Shown: positions 2,110 to 60,635 of the stretch, in pieces | Numbering within the stretch: position 1 is the stretch's first letter | How the letters are laid out: every line of letters starts with the position of its first letter | Assembly (NCBI GenBank): GCA_016787565.1 | Contig: JAEUUG010000015.1 | Location: 310,001-374,000 of the forward strand | Length of the DNA stretch: 64,000 nt | Source of the DNA: Cyclobacteriaceae bacterium | GTDB taxonomy: Bacteria; Bacteroidota; Bacteroidia; Cytophagales; Cyclobacteriaceae | Reading direction: 5' to 3' | Made by a program: the position numbers and the translations under genes | The notes under the pieces: model-generated | The model's input: only the letters and a program-made list of their open reading frames with translations | Told to the model about the DNA's origin: nothing | The model's database searches: none

Positions 2110-5100
2110 ATGACTATAAAAAAGAGCAAATCAAAAGTCGTCATAACCAGACCACGCCCAACGTCTCGTAGCCATTTTCCTGTGGTTGCCATTGGCGCCT
2201 CGGCAGGCGGGTTGGAAGCCATGATGGAGTTATTAAAATACCTTCCTCACAACACCGGTATGGCTTTCATTTATGTTCAGCACCTCAGCCCCGACCATAA
2301 AAGCATGTTGACTGAAATTTTGTCGAAGAAGACAAAAATGAAAGTGCAGGAGATTGATGACATGGATAAAATAAAACCCGATAACATCTTTGTCATTCCG
2401 TACAATAAAGGAATTGAAGTAACAGACGGGCACATTAAATTAATTCCCCGGTCTGAAAGCAGCACAGCAATTTCTATTGATATTCTTTTCTCTTCACTTG
2501 CCCATGCACAAAAAGAAAGAGTTATTGGCATTGTCCTTTCCGGGAGTGCCAGCGATGGCACCGTTGGCATAAAAGACATCAAGCACGAAGGTGGATTAAC
2601 CTTTGCACAAGATGATACCGCAAAATTTACGAGCATGCCGCACGCTGCTATTGCCGCAGGTGTAGTTGACTTCATTCTATCACCTAAAGAAATTGCGCTC
2701 GAACTGGCACGACTAAGCAAACATCCGTTTGTAAAATCTGCTCAGGTAGGAGTAAAAAACGTTAGTGAAGATTTGATTGACAACAATAATCCCGACTTAA
2801 AAATCATTCTCAACCTATTGCATAAAACCACTGGCGTTGATTTTGGTGTCTATAAAATGAACACCATCAAGAGGCGTATTATTCGCAGAATGTTGTTGTA
2901 TAAATTAACCACACTCAAACAATATGCGAAACTCCTTACCCAAAAAAACGAAGAGACCGATATCCTTTACCAGGATCTGTTGATTAATGTAACCAGTTTT
3001 TTTCGAGACACTGACACCCACAAATATTTAAAAGAAAATATTTTTCCAAAATTACTGAAACGAAAAAAAGAGGGCGAGTCGCTGCGGATATGGGTGCCAG
3101 CCTGCGCAACAGGCGAAGAAGCCTACTCCATTGCCATGATCTTGCTGGAAATTCAGGGAAGTCAGACCACCAACACGCCCGTTCAGATTTTCGCAACCGA
3201 CCTTAGTGGATTTGCCATCAGCAAAGCCCGCCTTGGTGTGTATACCAAGCAGGAGTTAGAAACGGTTTCACCCAAGCGCATCCAGCGTTTCTTTACAAAA
3301 GCTGACGGTAGTTTTCGTGTGAACAAAGCCGTACGCGATATGTGCGTGTTCGCACAGCATAACATTTTAAGTGACCCGCCCTTTTCGCGTCTTGATTTCA
3401 TCAGTTGCTGCAACCTCTTTATTTATCTGGATACCGCAGCACAAAACAAAGTTATCAACACGTTTCACTACGCGTTAAACAAGGATGGATTTTTGATGCT
3501 GGGCAAATCGGAAAACATCAGCAAGTCAGCGCGTCTTTTCACCAGCTCCAATAAAAAATTTAAAGTATTTTCACGCAAAATAAATTCAGGATCACAGCAG
3601 CTACCTGTGCTTTCGCCCCGTCTGGTTCAGCACGCTGTTTCCGGAAAACATACTACAGCTGCAAAGCGAAATAAAAACCAAACTCCAATGGTCATCGGAG
3701 CGGCCCATCAGTCCGGGCTTGACCATGCCATTGATGCCGTGCTGGTTTCAGAATTTATGCCTGCCAGTGTGGTTATCAATCACCAAATGGAAATCGTTCA
3801 GTTTCGCGGTACAACCGATCTGTTTCTTACACACCCAAAAGGCAAAGCCACTTTTAACATCTTAAAAATGGCCCGACCTGAAATGGCGTTCGAATTGCGC
3901 AATGCAATTTCAAAAGTCATTAAAACAAAACACCGCATTCGTAAAACAGGAATTGAACTAAAGCTTAATGGGGTTGCAAAACACATAGGTTTAGAGATTG
4001 TTCCGCTCAGCATCGAATGGAACGAGCCGTTGCTCCTTATTCTGTTCACCGAACAGGAGCCAGTAGAAATTTACCCACAGCGGGGGAATAGCGGAAAAAA
4101 TAATTCACCTGCAAAAGACCGCAGGATAAAGCGGCTGGAACAGGAATTAGCAGAAGCCCATGCGGATGCACTTTCTGTAGCGCAGGAGCATGAAGCATTT
4201 GCCGAAGAGTTACAGAGCGCAAGTGAAGAAGTGGTGTCGAGCAACGAAGAGCTGCAAACTGTAAATGAAGAATTGGAAACTTCAAAAGAAGAAATAGAAT
4301 CGGCTAACGAGGAACTCACCACCACCAATCAGGAATTACAAACACGCAACGACCTGCTCACGGAATCGTATGAATATTCAGATGCCATCGTTTCCACCAT
4401 GCACGAACCCATGCTTGTTTTAGGAAAAGACCTCCGGGTAAAATCAGCTAACAAAGCATTCTACAAAAAATTTAGTGTTACCGAAGAACAGACAGAAGGC
4501 GTGTTGCTCTATGATTTGGGTAATAAACAATGGAACATTCCCGCATTGCGCGAATTGCTGGAAGACATCATTCCCAAAAATTCTAAGTTCTTTAACTACG
4601 AAGTTAAACACACCTTTTTGAACTTAGGCGAAAAAATAATGTCACTCAATGCCAGGCGTGTTATTCAAAATGCGCACCGTGAACAATTAATTCTTCTGGT
4701 TATTGCTGACATTACAGAAGTAAGGCGCCTGATCGTGGAGAAAGAACTGCGGGAAAAAGAGGTGCTGAAAAAAGAACTCCGGGAGCGAAAAGCAGAAAAA
4801 TCCAAACTGGAAAAGGCTGTTACCGAAAGAACACATGAATTAAAAGAAGCCAATCAATTACTCGAAGCTAAGAACACCGAACTTCAAAATATGAATAAAG
4901 AACTTGAAGCCTTCGCGTATGTTTCAAGCCACGATTTACAAGAACCGCTACGCAAAATACAAACACTTGCCAGCCGCATCCTGGAAAAGGAAAATCAAGC
5001 CTTATCGGATAGCGGAAAAAATTATTTCAGGCTTATGCAGCAGGCCGCAGAAAGAATGCGGCAACTCATTCAGGATCTACTCACCTTCTCCCGCATCAAT

Positions 5101-56895: not shown

Positions 56896-58230
56896 ATGAC
56901 TGAAATGATTACCGATTCACTAGCTGTTAGCCCATCACCAGTAGCCCTGGCAGATTCGCTGCAAGTGGTGATGACAAAACTTGCCGAAACAAATGCAGCC
57001 GTTGACAATGCATTATTCACGACTAACAACCTATGGATGATGATAGCCGCAGCCCTGGTTTTCATTATGCACTTAGGTTTTGCATCCGTGGAAACAGGCT
57101 TCACGCAGGCAAAAAACACAGTTAACATCCTGTTTAAGAATAGTGTTACAGTGGCCATTGGCATACTTTCCTATGCTTTTGTTGGCTTTAACCTGATGTA
57201 CCCGGGCTTTGAAGCAGGAAGTTACAGCTGGTTTGGCTTTGCCGGATTTGGATTAACTGTACCCGATGGAGGCTTAACCTCTGCTTACAATCCGGGCTAC
57301 ACCTATTGGACAGATTTCCTTTTTCAGGGAATGTTTGCCGCTACCTGCGCTACAATAGTTTCAGGAGCTGTTGCCGAACGTATCAAAATCTCAGCATACA
57401 TCATTTTCACCGCTATTTATGTAAGCCTGGTGTACCCGATCATCGGTTCCTGGAAGTGGGGATATGGTTTCCTCAATGACATGGGCTTTTATGATTTTGC
57501 AGGCTCAACCCTAGTACACTCCGTTGGAGGATGGGGAGCGCTGGCTGGTATTATCGTTCTGGGTTCACGCCTCGGAAAATTTGTTGACGGAAAATCACAG
57601 GATTTCCCTGGCTCATCAGTTCCCCTGGCTACGATTGGTGTTTTCTTACTGTGGTTAGGCTGGTTCGGATTTAACGGAGGTTCTGTTTTATCTGCTGATC
57701 CTGGTTTGGTTTCGCTGGTATTAGTAACCACTACCATTGCCGGTGCCGCAGGTGCTATAGGCGGACTGATCGGTGGCATGCTTGTTTTCAAACGCATTGA
57801 CTTTGGTATGGTGCTTAACGGTATCCTGGCAGGCCTTGTAGGCATTACTGCTGGTGCTGATCAAATGGGCCCATTAGATGCCACCATCATTGGAATACTT
57901 GCCGGTGTATTGGTTGTACTCTCCGCAGTATTCATCGATCGCGTGCTGAAACTGGATGACCCGGTTGGAGCTGTATCGGTACACTTAACCTGTGGTATTT
58001 TCGGTACGCTTGCCGTTGGCATATTCGGTGCAAAAGCGGGATTTGATCAGTTCATCACACAACTCATCGGAATTGCTGCTTGTGGTGGTGCAGCCTTTAT
58101 CGTGGCCTTCGCCATATTCAAAATCTCTGATTTGATCTATGGAATTCGCGTGTCAGGCGATCATGAGAAAAAAGGTATGGATAGCCACGAACACGGTATC
58201 CGTGGTTACACAATTACCTATGAAGATTAA
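56896..58230 (+). CDS. amt: Ammonium transporter (Amt/Rh family)
   Basis: A 444-residue membrane protein with about 11 helices. After a short N-terminal lead (about residues 1-45), it has MMIAAALVFIMHLGFASVETGF, then AVAERIKISAYIIF, STLVHSVGGWGALAGIIVLGSRLG (about 207) and LWLGWFGFNGGS. These are the core of the Amt pore with the conserved His and Trp/Phe region. It takes up ammonium for assimilation. No GlnK/P-II gene lies next to it, but a porin gene follows 107 bases downstream and may be co-expressed. Confidence 0.94.
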   Translation: MTEMITDSLAVSPSPVALADSLQVVMTKLAETNAAVDNALFTTNNLWMMIAAALVFIMHLGFASVETGFTQAKNTVNILFKNSVTVAIGILSYAFVGFNLMYPGFEAGSYSWFGFAGFGLTVPDGGLTSAYNPGYTYWTDFLFQGMFAATCATIVSGAVAERIKISAYIIFTAIYVSLVYPIIGSWKWGYGFLNDMGFYDFAGSTLVHSVGGWGALAGIIVLGSRLGKFVDGKSQDFPGSSVPLATIGVFLLWLGWFGFNGGSVLSADPGLVSLVLVTTTIAGAAGAIGGLIGGMLVFKRIDFGMVLNGILAGLVGITAGADQMGPLDATIIGILAGVLVVLSAVFIDRVLKLDDPVGAVSVHLTCGIFGTLAVGIFGAKAGFDQFITQLIGIAACGGAAFIVAFAIFKISDLIYGIRVSGDHEKKGMDSHEHGIRGYTITYED

Positions 58231-58239
58231 TCTATAACG

Positions 58240-58261
58240 AGTCCGGAAGAAATTCCGGACT
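58240..58261 (+). other. Hairpin just behind amt
   Basis: AGTCCGGAA-gaaa-TTCCGGACT, a perfect 9-bp stem starting 10 bases after the amt stop. Only TCATT follows, so it is a weak or regulated terminator that could allow readthrough into the porin leader. Confidence 0.55.
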
Positions 58262-58269
58262 TCATTAAA

Positions 58270-58326
58270 CCCATCAACAGGGTGTGAGAGACCCGATGGG
58301 ATGTTCTGGTTTATTGTTTACTAAAA
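58270..58326 (+). promoter_or_regulatory. GTGAGAG-loop hairpin element, copy 1 (porin leader)
   Basis: Nested stems CCCATC/GATGGG (58270-58275 with 58295-58300) and GGGT/ACCC (58280-58283 with 58291-58294) close a GTGAGAG loop. An 18-base tail GTTTATTGTTTACTAAAA (58309-58326) follows, and the porin ATG is at 58338. A second copy with the same loop, inner stem and tail is at 60495-60549. The outer stems differ but keep pairing, so an RNA structure is likely. Its function is unknown. Confidence 0.6.
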
Positions 58327-58337
58327 CACACAACGAA

Positions 58338-59564
58338 ATGAAAACTAAAAAACTAAGTACTTTAATCATTGCCGCTTTATTTGGCTTAACCGAATATGGT
58401 TTTGCACAAGAATCGATTCTGGCCTCTGCCATCAAAAAAAATAAAGAAAAATCTGCCGAGTCTGCCACAACCCCGGTAACACCAGTCGAGGCCGGTGTTG
58501 AAGAAGTGAAAGAGGAAGAAGAAAAAACATTCACACTATCCGGTTCTGTGGATGCGTACTTTCATACTTCATTTGGTTCCGATACCTATGCTCCTGCCAC
58601 ATCCTTTGCTAACCTGAATGGTTTTGGATTGGGTATGGTAAACCTTATTGGTTCATATTCTGGTGAGAAGGTTGGATTTACTGCTGACCTTGTATTCGGT
58701 CCGCGTGGTAAAGACGCTGTCTTCGCTAATCAATACACATCGCAAAGCATCATTAACCAATTGTTTGTGTACTACAAAGTTTCTGATGTTGTAACCTTTA
58801 ACATCGGACAGTTCAACACCTTTCTGGGCTATGAGGTAATCTCCCCCACTGTCAACTTCCACTACTCAACCTCTTATATGTTCTCTTATGGCCCTTTCAA
58901 CCATACAGGCTTGCGCGCAGACTTTGCCTTTAAGAATGGAATGGTTGCTAAACTGGCGATTATGAACCCAACTGATCTCGTTGAGTTTAATCCCGTAAAT
59001 ACCTATACACTCGGTGGACAAATTGGTTATGCCAATGACGCTGGTGGAATCTGGTTCAACGTGCTGGCCGGTGATCAGGACGGAACGTTGGAAAAGTATG
59101 ACCTTGATGAAGATGGGTATTCAGAAGGAAGTACTTTTCAGGCCGACATTACAACAGGCTGGAACCTATCAGACAAATTCTATCTGGGTGCTAACGCTAC
59201 CTACCGCACCGTAGCAAAAGGAGAACAGTTTGTAGGTGATGTCATTGAATCTGTCGATGAACCAACAAAAGGATTTTTAGGATTCGCGCTCTATCCAAAA
59301 GTATCCATCTCAGAAAGCTTCGCCCTCGGTGTTCGCGCAGAATACTTCGCAGTACAAAAAGGATATATCGAACCAATCGGTTTAGATGATTCGGGTGACG
59401 GAAGTGTAATTGACATTACCCTGTCTGCAAACTATAAGGTTGGTGGATTAACCATCATCCCCGAGTTCCGAATTGATTCATCATCTGAGAATTCTTTCCT
59501 TAAAGATACATCATACTCCAAGTCCTTGTCAACATTCACACTTGCTGCCGTGTACAAGTTCTAA
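58338..59564 (+). CDS. OmpL-like porin (beta-barrel porin-2 type)
   Basis: About 408 residues. The signal peptide is LIIAALFGLTEYGFAQ, followed by a short Glu-rich linker (EEVKEEEEKT) and a beta barrel. The FTLSGSVDAYFHTSFG opening and many strands of alternating hydrophobic and aromatic residues fit the putative OmpL-like porin-2 family. The barrel ends with STFTLAAVYKF, a typical C-terminal Phe. It lies in the outer membrane and may pass small nitrogen compounds to Amt; that is inference. The start at ATG 58338 is set by the signal peptide; the upstream frame is part of the leader. Confidence 0.85.
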   Translation: MKTKKLSTLIIAALFGLTEYGFAQESILASAIKKNKEKSAESATTPVTPVEAGVEEVKEEEEKTFTLSGSVDAYFHTSFGSDTYAPATSFANLNGFGLGMVNLIGSYSGEKVGFTADLVFGPRGKDAVFANQYTSQSIINQLFVYYKVSDVVTFNIGQFNTFLGYEVISPTVNFHYSTSYMFSYGPFNHTGLRADFAFKNGMVAKLAIMNPTDLVEFNPVNTYTLGGQIGYANDAGGIWFNVLAGDQDGTLEKYDLDEDGYSEGSTFQADITTGWNLSDKFYLGANATYRTVAKGEQFVGDVIESVDEPTKGFLGFALYPKVSISESFALGVRAEYFAVQKGYIEPIGLDDSGDGSVIDITLSANYKVGGLTIIPEFRIDSSSENSFLKDTSYSKSLSTFTLAAVYKF

Positions 59565-59950: not shown

Positions 59951-60166
59951 ATGATGAAGACAGCCATTGATATGAATCGTAGGGAGAATCTGAAAAATGA
60001 ATTAAGAAATGAATTCCCCAACCTTTCGGATGCAGAGTTAAACAGCATCGATGAATCATTCGAAAACTTTATTGAGAGCGTTTCGCTTAAGGTGAATCGC
60101 GATAGACAAGAAGTGGCCCGCGTGGTTGAAGAAAGATTGAATTACATCAATTCAAAAGCCATCTAA
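59951..60166 (+). CDS. Small helical hypothetical protein
   Basis: A 71-residue, highly charged, fully helical protein (RRENLKNELRNEFPNLSDAELNSIDESFENFIESV and a basic second half). It has no signal peptide, cysteine or membrane segment. I do not recognise the family; the LSDAELNSI segment recalls small CsbD-like or stress proteins only loosely. It is supported by a clear terminator 24 bases after its stop. Confidence 0.55.
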   Translation: MMKTAIDMNRRENLKNELRNEFPNLSDAELNSIDESFENFIESVSLKVNRDRQEVARVVEERLNYINSKAI

Positions 60167-60189: not shown

Positions 60190-60222
60190 AAAGGAGACTT
60201 CATCAAGAGGTCTCCTTTTTAA
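60190..60222 (+). terminator. Intrinsic terminator behind the small gene
   Basis: AAAGGAGAC-ttcatcaagag-GTCTCCTTT (60190-60218, 9-bp stem) followed by TTAATT. It lies 24 bases after the small gene's stop. Confidence 0.82.
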
Positions 60223-60494
60223 TTGATGCCTATTAAGTGTGGTTTTGTTTGAACGATAAAGCAATCGTTTCCAATAAATTTTTATACCGTTAGGCACAAA
60301 TAATACCCAATTCAATGAATTTTTCATAATTTAAATCAGAGAAGGATATGTTTTTTACCCTTCCATTTAATAATAGAATCATTAACCTAACCTATACTTA
60401 ACCTATGCAGAGCACCCTACTTATCAGAAGCGATTGAAATTATCCTTCGCAGAAAGAATCATTTGCAAAGCGAACGATTCCATTCACCAAAGAG
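60223..60494. other. Gene-free gap
   Basis: AT-rich sequence between the terminator at 60190 and the second GTGAGAG element, with no supported gene. It includes TAATTTAAATCAGAGAAGG and a stretch resembling a leader, but no promoter could be named. Confidence 0.3.
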
Positions 60495-60549
60495 TCCCAG
60501 TGGGTGTGAGAGACCCGCTGGGATTTCTTTAGTTTATTGTTTACTAAAA
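60495..60549 (+). ncRNA. GTGAGAG-loop hairpin element, copy 2 (no gene behind it)
   Basis: TCCCAGTGGGT-gtgagag-ACCCGCTGGGA forms an 11-bp stem (60495-60505 with 60513-60523, one T-G pair) with the same loop as copy 1. The identical 18-base tail GTTTATTGTTTACTAAAA follows (60532-60549). The next plus-strand sequence encodes nothing before the convergent helicase gene. It may be a small RNA, a decayed leader or a second site of one RNA motif. The RNA type is inferred only from structure. Confidence 0.45.
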
Positions 60550-60635
60550 AACACAGCTCTAAATAAAATACCCGGGTTCTTTCGTCAAACAGAATTCGGA
60601 TAAGCCGTTGATCTGTGCTGAAAAAGGAATATCGC

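Follow-up and report, generated by a model that had tools for sequence, protein, structure and literature searches.

Hairpins at the 5' end of a message that stabilise it, of the kind known from the ompA leader, and intercistronic hairpins that give the genes of an operon unequal output are known for porin and other mRNAs. The element described here resembles stabilisers of the ompA-leader kind in that a strong stem precedes the region where translation of an outer-membrane protein starts, but it differs from them in that the loop, the 5' flank and the tail are conserved too, and in its place behind an ammonium transporter gene (amt). Intrinsic terminators are likewise GC-rich hairpins between genes; here, however, there is no regular T run and the loop is conserved. 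To our knowledge, few cis-acting RNAs have been described in Bacteroidota outside Bacteroides and the flavobacteria, and many of the motifs of one study of 224 candidate RNAs are reportedly in Rfam.

Nitrogen-gene leaders are represented by the glnA RNAs (RF01739) and the Downstream-peptide RNAs (RF01704), which are listed for Cyanobacteria and marine sequences in excerpts of PMC2864571. According to these excerpts the glnA RNAs include leaders of ammonium transporters and glutamine synthetase; unlike the present element, a single simple covarying hairpin, both are Rfam families, and no Rfam model matched here. The Bacteroid-trp, Flavo-1 and other Bacteroidetes motifs that appear in excerpts of earlier comparative scans come from the same phylum, but none of those that carry an Rfam number was matched in our Rfam scans. 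The excerpts of PMC2864571 and PMC8040213 name no amt-porin motif in Bacteroidetes, and a search of the open literature returned no paper recognisable as describing the element.

Two copies of the hairpin in the window

The window analysed is a stretch of 64,000 nucleotides from a Cyclobacteriaceae genome, in which a first-pass annotation had noted a pair of GTGAGAG hairpins 2.2 kb apart with the same 18-base tail (Table 1). The positions of the pair proved exact, and its occurrence is far above chance. The window contains the exact sequence GGGTGTGAGAGACCC at two places only, 58280-58294 and 60502-60516; for matches with up to two mismatches the expectation was 0.01, and 0 of 100 shuffles gave two. 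The tail also has exactly two occurrences and is weaker when taken alone (three mismatches allowed; shuffle mean, 0.22; two matches in 2 of 100 shuffles). In the whole genome of origin, which is 89% complete, the core GTGTGAGAGAC was found solely at copy 1 and copy 2.

Fold prediction gave a bulged hairpin for copy 1, with the four-base bulge at 58276-58279, and a single 14-bp stem for copy 2. The folding z-scores were -1.6 (66 nt) and -3.0 (36 nt) for copy 1 and -6.1 (63 nt) and -7.1 (36 nt) for copy 2. The outer stems are CCCATC/GATGGG and CCCAG/CTGGG as had been claimed, and the fifth pair, counted from the outside, is indeed T-A in one copy and G-C in the other. The element is longer than originally described: it starts with CATTAAA in copy 1 (58263) and CACCAAA in copy 2 (60485), and in copy 1 it extends through the tail almost up to the porin ATG (58338). 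The covariance model R3 matched copy 1 with 50.7 bits (E, 1e-8) and copy 2 with 82.6 bits (E, 7e-16), a difference to be read with the R3 alignment in mind, which contained copy 2 and not copy 1.

Sequence and Pfam place copy 1 between amt (PF00909) and the start of a porin gene (PF07642). The designation "porin leader" therefore holds for copy 1 and fails for copy 2, behind which its strand showed no open reading frame up to 60636, where a convergent AAA_11/AAA_12 gene ends (frames under 80 residues judged by eye). Copy 2 is preceded by a 70-residue frame (59954-60163) that had no Pfam match. The genome of origin also has a second amt (locus L152, C6:18055-19260) followed by a 118-residue frame that looks PII-like by eye, and there was no sign of the element between the two.

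Table 1. Coordinates of the element copies and surrounding features, in window positions
Feature	Position	Strand	Basis
amt, ammonium transporter (PF00909)	56896..58230	+	Pfam
Separate hairpin AGTCCGGAA-GAAA-TTCCGGACT, directly behind amt and upstream of copy 1; no long T run	58240..58261	+	by eye
Copy 1 (w1), conserved CAYTAAA to AACAC tail	58263..58332	+	R3 match, alignment A7
Copy 1 hairpin: CCCATC/GATGGG, bulge AACA, GGGT/ACCC, loop GTGAGAG (58284-58290)	58270..58300	+	sequence, fold
Copy 1 outer stem arms CCCATC/GATGGG	58270-58275/58295-58300	+	sequence
Copy 1 tail GTTTATTGTTTACTAAAA; most relatives GCTTATTGTT-N4-9-AACAC	58309..58326	+	sequence, alignment
BBP2 porin (PF07642), led by copy 1, ATG 58338	58338..59564	+	Pfam
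Hairpin with T run, terminator-like, after the 70-residue frame and ahead of the copy 2 leader	60192..60220	+	by eye
Short upstream frame MQSTLLIRSD, copy 2 leader	60405..60437	+	by eye
Copy 2 (w2), nearer the family consensus than copy 1; no gene behind	60485..60555	+	R3 match
Copy 2 hairpin stem, loop GTGAGAG (60506-60512)	60495..60523	+	sequence, fold
Copy 2 tail, same as copy 1 tail	60532..60549	+	sequence

A conserved RNA in the amt-porin leader of one family

The GTGAGAG hairpins belong to a genuine, conserved RNA element. Models built from the window copies recovered 38 copies in 37 genomes, all within one family, judged from record titles to be the Cyclobacteriaceae. As the first-pass annotation had expected of a structured RNA, the further copies found by covariance-model search were not scattered; they lie in amt-porin spacers, and their pairs covary. 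A first pattern search over 146 genomes, allowing one mismatch, gave 15 matches in other genomes against 8 for a reversed control, and only those in G017 and G064 were real, each carrying the element with the same flanks, amt before it and a porin after it. Model R1, run over 195 genomes, added G083, G151 and G073; its matches in G018 and G188, the ones inspected among those with E above 0.02, were dropped since they lie inside or beside other genes. Model R2, run over 390 genomes of the family, matched 42 genomes at E of 0.1 or below, of which 36 (35 and the genome of origin) were real, all at E of 0.0016 or below. The six false matches (G255, G053, G156, G202, G211 and G044) start at E of 0.012 and had no amt or porin match in the fetched stretch.

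The real R2 matches span six genera (g1, g16, g18, g65, g74 and g84), with one copy each in 35 of the 36 genomes, and the element is patchy inside its genera: G259 (g18), G015 (g16) and G198 (g65) had no real match. Model R3 was run over samples of the order (291 genomes) and the phylum (395 genomes), with stricter filters that lose weak matches, and gave no real match outside the same family; matches in G551 and G832 were rejected, as they lie beside other genes. An exact pattern search over contigs gave 11 contigs. One of these, L141, was counted as an additional copy; there amt, the element, the porin gene and glutamine synthetase follow one another, and its Amt clusters in a tree with the Amt proteins of the element-bearing family. 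The tail was also considered as a general regulatory signal and rejected, TTATTGTTWAWTAAAACAC with two mismatches being scarcely commoner than the reversed control among the matches listed (by eye).

The pairing was analysed in an alignment of 23 of the 38 copies (A6), made with MAFFT without structure and omitting six near-duplicates (G064, G299, G258, G418, G416 and G447) and nine copies with indels or weaker stems (w1, G236, G212, G253, G232, G419, G412, G289 and G441). RNAalifold predicted one 12-bp stem, columns 10-21 with 30-43, in which 9 of the 12 pairs are doubly changed. Within this stem 93.3% of cells pair, compared with 81.1 in shuffled alignments, and 35 cells are doubly changed, compared with 10.2. 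The covariation score was 0.352 versus 0.156 +/- 0.017 for shuffles, and slid registers reached 0.102 at most; the number of further pair types (13 versus 13.6 shuffled) was not above shuffles. On the Amt tree, which omits G419 because of its short Amt, 22 of the 23 rows were counted (w2 has no Amt). The stem requires at least 17 double changes from one Watson-Crick pair to another, while registers slid by 1 or 2 need 1-3. The inner closing pair flips from U-A to A-U in two rows. With all 38 rows (A7, in which w1 is visibly misaligned), 10 stem pairs were predicted, 9 of them doubly changed, at -11.2 kcal/mol compared with -19.1 for A6. Selection on pairing, previously read from the single compensatory change between the window copies, is supported by the doubly changed pairs, the covariation score and the double changes on the tree, and a consensus stem with compensatory changes is what a cis-acting structured RNA leader should have.

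Three single-stranded parts are conserved as well: CACYAAAGC on the 5' side of the stem; the loop GUGAGA[G/U], whose variants include GUAAGAG, GUACGAG, GUCGAAG and AUGCGAC; and the tail GCUUAUUGUU-N4-9-AACAC-N10-12-AUG. Two further helices were tried and rejected. For an outer helix AAGC/GCUU, 92.4% of cells pair, yet A6 shows no double changes in it and it does not exceed shuffles; by eye, copy 1, which is outside A6, has AAAC/GTTT at this position. A helix CUAAAG/CUUUAG pairs in 79%, no more than shuffles. In two genomes, G151 (L055) and G278 (L134), a stretch within 70 bases upstream complements AAAGCG and the left arm over 12 and 11 bases, respectively. This complementarity is kept through paired changes, the own stem of G278 loses pairs, and the stretch could possibly form a competing hairpin.

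Compared with Rfam 15, the hairpins were unmatched both at the gathering threshold and at a permissive E of 5 or below; the permissive scan of the window gave two chance-level matches inside amt and none at the hairpins. The element looks like an uncatalogued candidate control or stability element for the porin.

Gene context and element-free spacers

The nitrogen gene context of the element is strong. In 37 of the 38 copies tblastn found amt upstream and, on the coding strand, a porin downstream, the exception being copy 2; the downstream gene is a BBP2 porin or a tblastn relative of one, with Pfam checked for four. The orientation relative to the porin is identical in all 37 copies that have one behind them. 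A fixed position and orientation ahead of a single kind of gene is what a cis-acting RNA leader should show. Glutamine synthetase follows the porin in at least 19 of the 38 copies, many flanks being short (one was checked, PF00120/PF03951), and an asnB relative lies upstream of amt in at least 5, a count limited by the flanks. In the genome of origin, 89% complete, a 68-residue query used with no positive control found no glutamine synthetase of the porin-trailing kind.

Of 36 rows with a measured distance, 27 have the element 6-87 bases from the Amt match and the other 9 have it 153-267 bases away. In these nine long-spacer genomes amt is often followed by a terminator-like hairpin and the element preceded by a short frame, so the element may lead its own transcript there. 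Such short frames, judged by eye, precede the element in nine genomes besides that of copy 2, in the long-spacer leaders L131, L104, L136, L118, L121, L056, L140, L125 and L126; examples are MQQHAASRIASP, MKEYQSQFRESS and MTKSTSSHPHDF, and several are Gln- or Ser-rich. They are possible leader peptides. At the other end of the element, the spacing from AACA(C) to ATG is 10-12 bases in 33 of 38 leaders by a regular expression for the tail, which misses w1, w2, G073, G273 and G289. In 31 of 37 leaders at least 25 bases separate the ATG from the end of the strongest hairpin detected automatically (median, 32). A tail lacking the hairpin was seen directly before an ATG at two other loci, L054 (reverse strand, oriented 4592-4644; GCTTATTGTTAATTAAAACACAC) and L033 (1501-1553); the gene is that of the G083 protein Bflower_2 (PF21785) in L054 and its counterpart in G015 in L033. 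A promoter of the form TTTG-N16-21-TANNTTTG was sought and none was found near the element, the window holding 3 against 3.55 expected.

Amt-porin spacers were also examined in 50 genomes that had no real match (46 of the family, 4 of the order). A porin match to the alignment was present in 25, with amt directly upstream in 23 of these, and 22 of the 25 loci were used, omitting L165 (contig end), L179 (no amt in reach) and L186 (amt behind the porin). In 21 of the 22 the spacer folds better than shuffles (z below -2; median, -3.52), compared with 34 of 56 other co-directional spacers (median, -2.72; Fisher P value, 0.002), a control based on a crude frame caller, on 40 shuffles where the spacer test had 100, and on mostly element-bearing genomes. 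Hairpins are therefore common between genes here and commoner still in the amt-porin spacer, where the place of the hairpin seems to be kept while its sequence turns over.

Loop words are shared among the element-free spacers: GCGACUCUC in L166 and L168-L171, GGACACUC in L175 and L178, and GCCACUC in L181 and L184. A regular expression for the loops matched 15 of the 22 spacers, compared with 2.7 for shuffled bases and 7 for the opposite strand; as it was made after the loops had been seen, this is a lead and not a test. A second recurring amt-porin hairpin, with a loop like AAAAAAACGCGACTCTCTTTC and differing stems, was observed in L166, L168, L169, L170 and L171, with similar ones in L167, L172 and L180, and other element-free lineages share GGACACTC or GCCACTC loops. 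The leader of G259 (L162) is a natural deletion, in which the flank pieces CACCAAGCGTTCC and ATTGTTAAAAAACAAC are kept and the hairpin is missing, and G015, whose genus carries the element, has the amt-porin pair and no element.

Possible modes of action and locus history

Structure, position and conservation establish the element as a conserved RNA in the amt-porin intercistronic leader, and the same three features point to an action in cis on the porin message. The reading that we favour, with a probability of roughly 0.47, is that the element acts between the two cistrons as a 5' stabiliser or processing barrier joined to a translation-start context, by which the porin would be made at its own level. 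The strong hairpin would mark or shield the 5' end of the porin portion of the transcript, stopping processing there and hindering decay in the manner of the ompA leader, and the AU-rich tail behind it, GCUUAUUGUU...AACAC-N10-12-AUG, would serve as the translation start region. Porin output could then be independent of, and probably above, that of the upstream ammonium transporter. Conservation of the apical loop GUGAGA[G/U] and of the flank CACYAAAGC suggests that the hairpin may also be a specific target, for instance of a nuclease, an RNA-binding protein or a partner RNA.

This stabiliser or processing role fits the lack of a regular T run, a stem whose sequence varies with pairing kept, and an AU-rich region that reaches the start codon; one copy per genome is as expected of a dedicated leader. 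Excerpts of a study of Formosa, a marine flavobacterium, place a porin at 10% riBAQ in a putative operon with an ammonium transporter (PMC6246565), which suggests, by a comparison of gene arrangement, that unequal output may be needed in amt-porin operons. Several observations count against the favoured mechanism. The conservation of loop, 5' flank and tail is more than a pure stabiliser needs, copy 2 has stayed in good condition although no gene follows it, nine genomes have the long spacers in which the element may lead its own transcript, G259 keeps flank remnants and lacks the hairpin while G015 lacks the element, and spacer hairpins are common anyway, as the control spacers show.

The main rival is a nitrogen-sensing or protein-binding switch, in which the loop and flanks would bind a ligand reporting the nitrogen state or a regulatory protein and so alter translation or transcription of the porin and, where present, glutamine synthetase. 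We consider this possible though less probable, and give it that much weight because the conserved loop argues for something more specific. The strong conservation of loop, CACYAAAGC and tail across six genera speaks for it, as do the neighbouring amt, porin, glutamine synthetase and asnB genes. The AAGC/GCUU outer helix could compete with CUAAAG/CUUUAG, and the upstream stretches of G151 and G278 could compete for the left arm; however, neither of the two helices covaries above shuffles, and a competing stretch was present in 2 of the 37 real rows tested (L141 left out; a third has 7 bases). A single simple covarying hairpin is also small for a ligand pocket, and a dedicated protein is less likely when each genome offers it a single target.

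A broader version, which we regard as doubtful, would make the amt-porin spacer a family-wide recognition site whose loops have been swapped between lineages (GUGAGA[G/U], GCGACUCUC-like, GCCACUC-like and GGACACUC-like), with a trans-acting partner tying porin output to the nitrogen state and copy 2 serving as a decoy or small RNA.

It is improbable that the element is a leaky intrinsic terminator or attenuator between amt and porin, even though its stable, GC-rich stem sits between co-directional genes and up to 7 T occur in the 9 bases after the hairpin in some rows (G151 and G278; hairpin ends set automatically). The median is 3 T in those 9 bases rather than a stem followed by a T run, and G073 and G273 show no T run by eye; with no T run as a rule, this is not a standard terminator. 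Moreover, a terminator has no need of a sequence-specific loop and tail, and an ordinary T-run hairpin exists in the same neighbourhood, ahead of copy 2. A DNA operator, that is, an inverted repeat bound by a transcription factor, is very improbable: the tail does contain the inverted repeat TGTT...AACA, but its spacing varies from 4 to 9 bases, the stem changes in sequence while its pairing stays, which protein-DNA recognition does not demand, and the orientation to the porin never varies. A dispersed repeat of the REP or MITE kind, present here by chance, could explain why two copies sharing the same tail lie 2.2 kb apart but is largely refuted by single copies in nearly all element-bearing R2 genomes, by the same gene pair at 37 of 38 copies rather than many unrelated places, and by the absence of a third hairpin copy from the genome of origin.

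The two window copies differ in their likely history. The setting upstream of copy 2, with its terminator-like hairpin and MQSTLLIRSD frame, resembles by eye the long spacers of other genomes. The window amt beside copy 1 encodes a transporter remote from the Amt proteins that neighbour the element in the other genomes: it has an extremely long branch in the Amt tree and is about 31% identical over 184 residues to the Amt of L141. On the simplest reading of these sequences, copy 2 would be the remnant of a usual amt-porin-glutamine synthetase unit whose genes are gone from there, and copy 1 would belong to a diverged or transferred copy.

With strong covariation and one clear target, the element lends itself to a reporter experiment. 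Its target genes bring nitrogen into the cell, and, as the Formosa excerpts suggest by comparison (PMC6246565), it may show how one cluster splits into a scarce transporter and an abundant porin.
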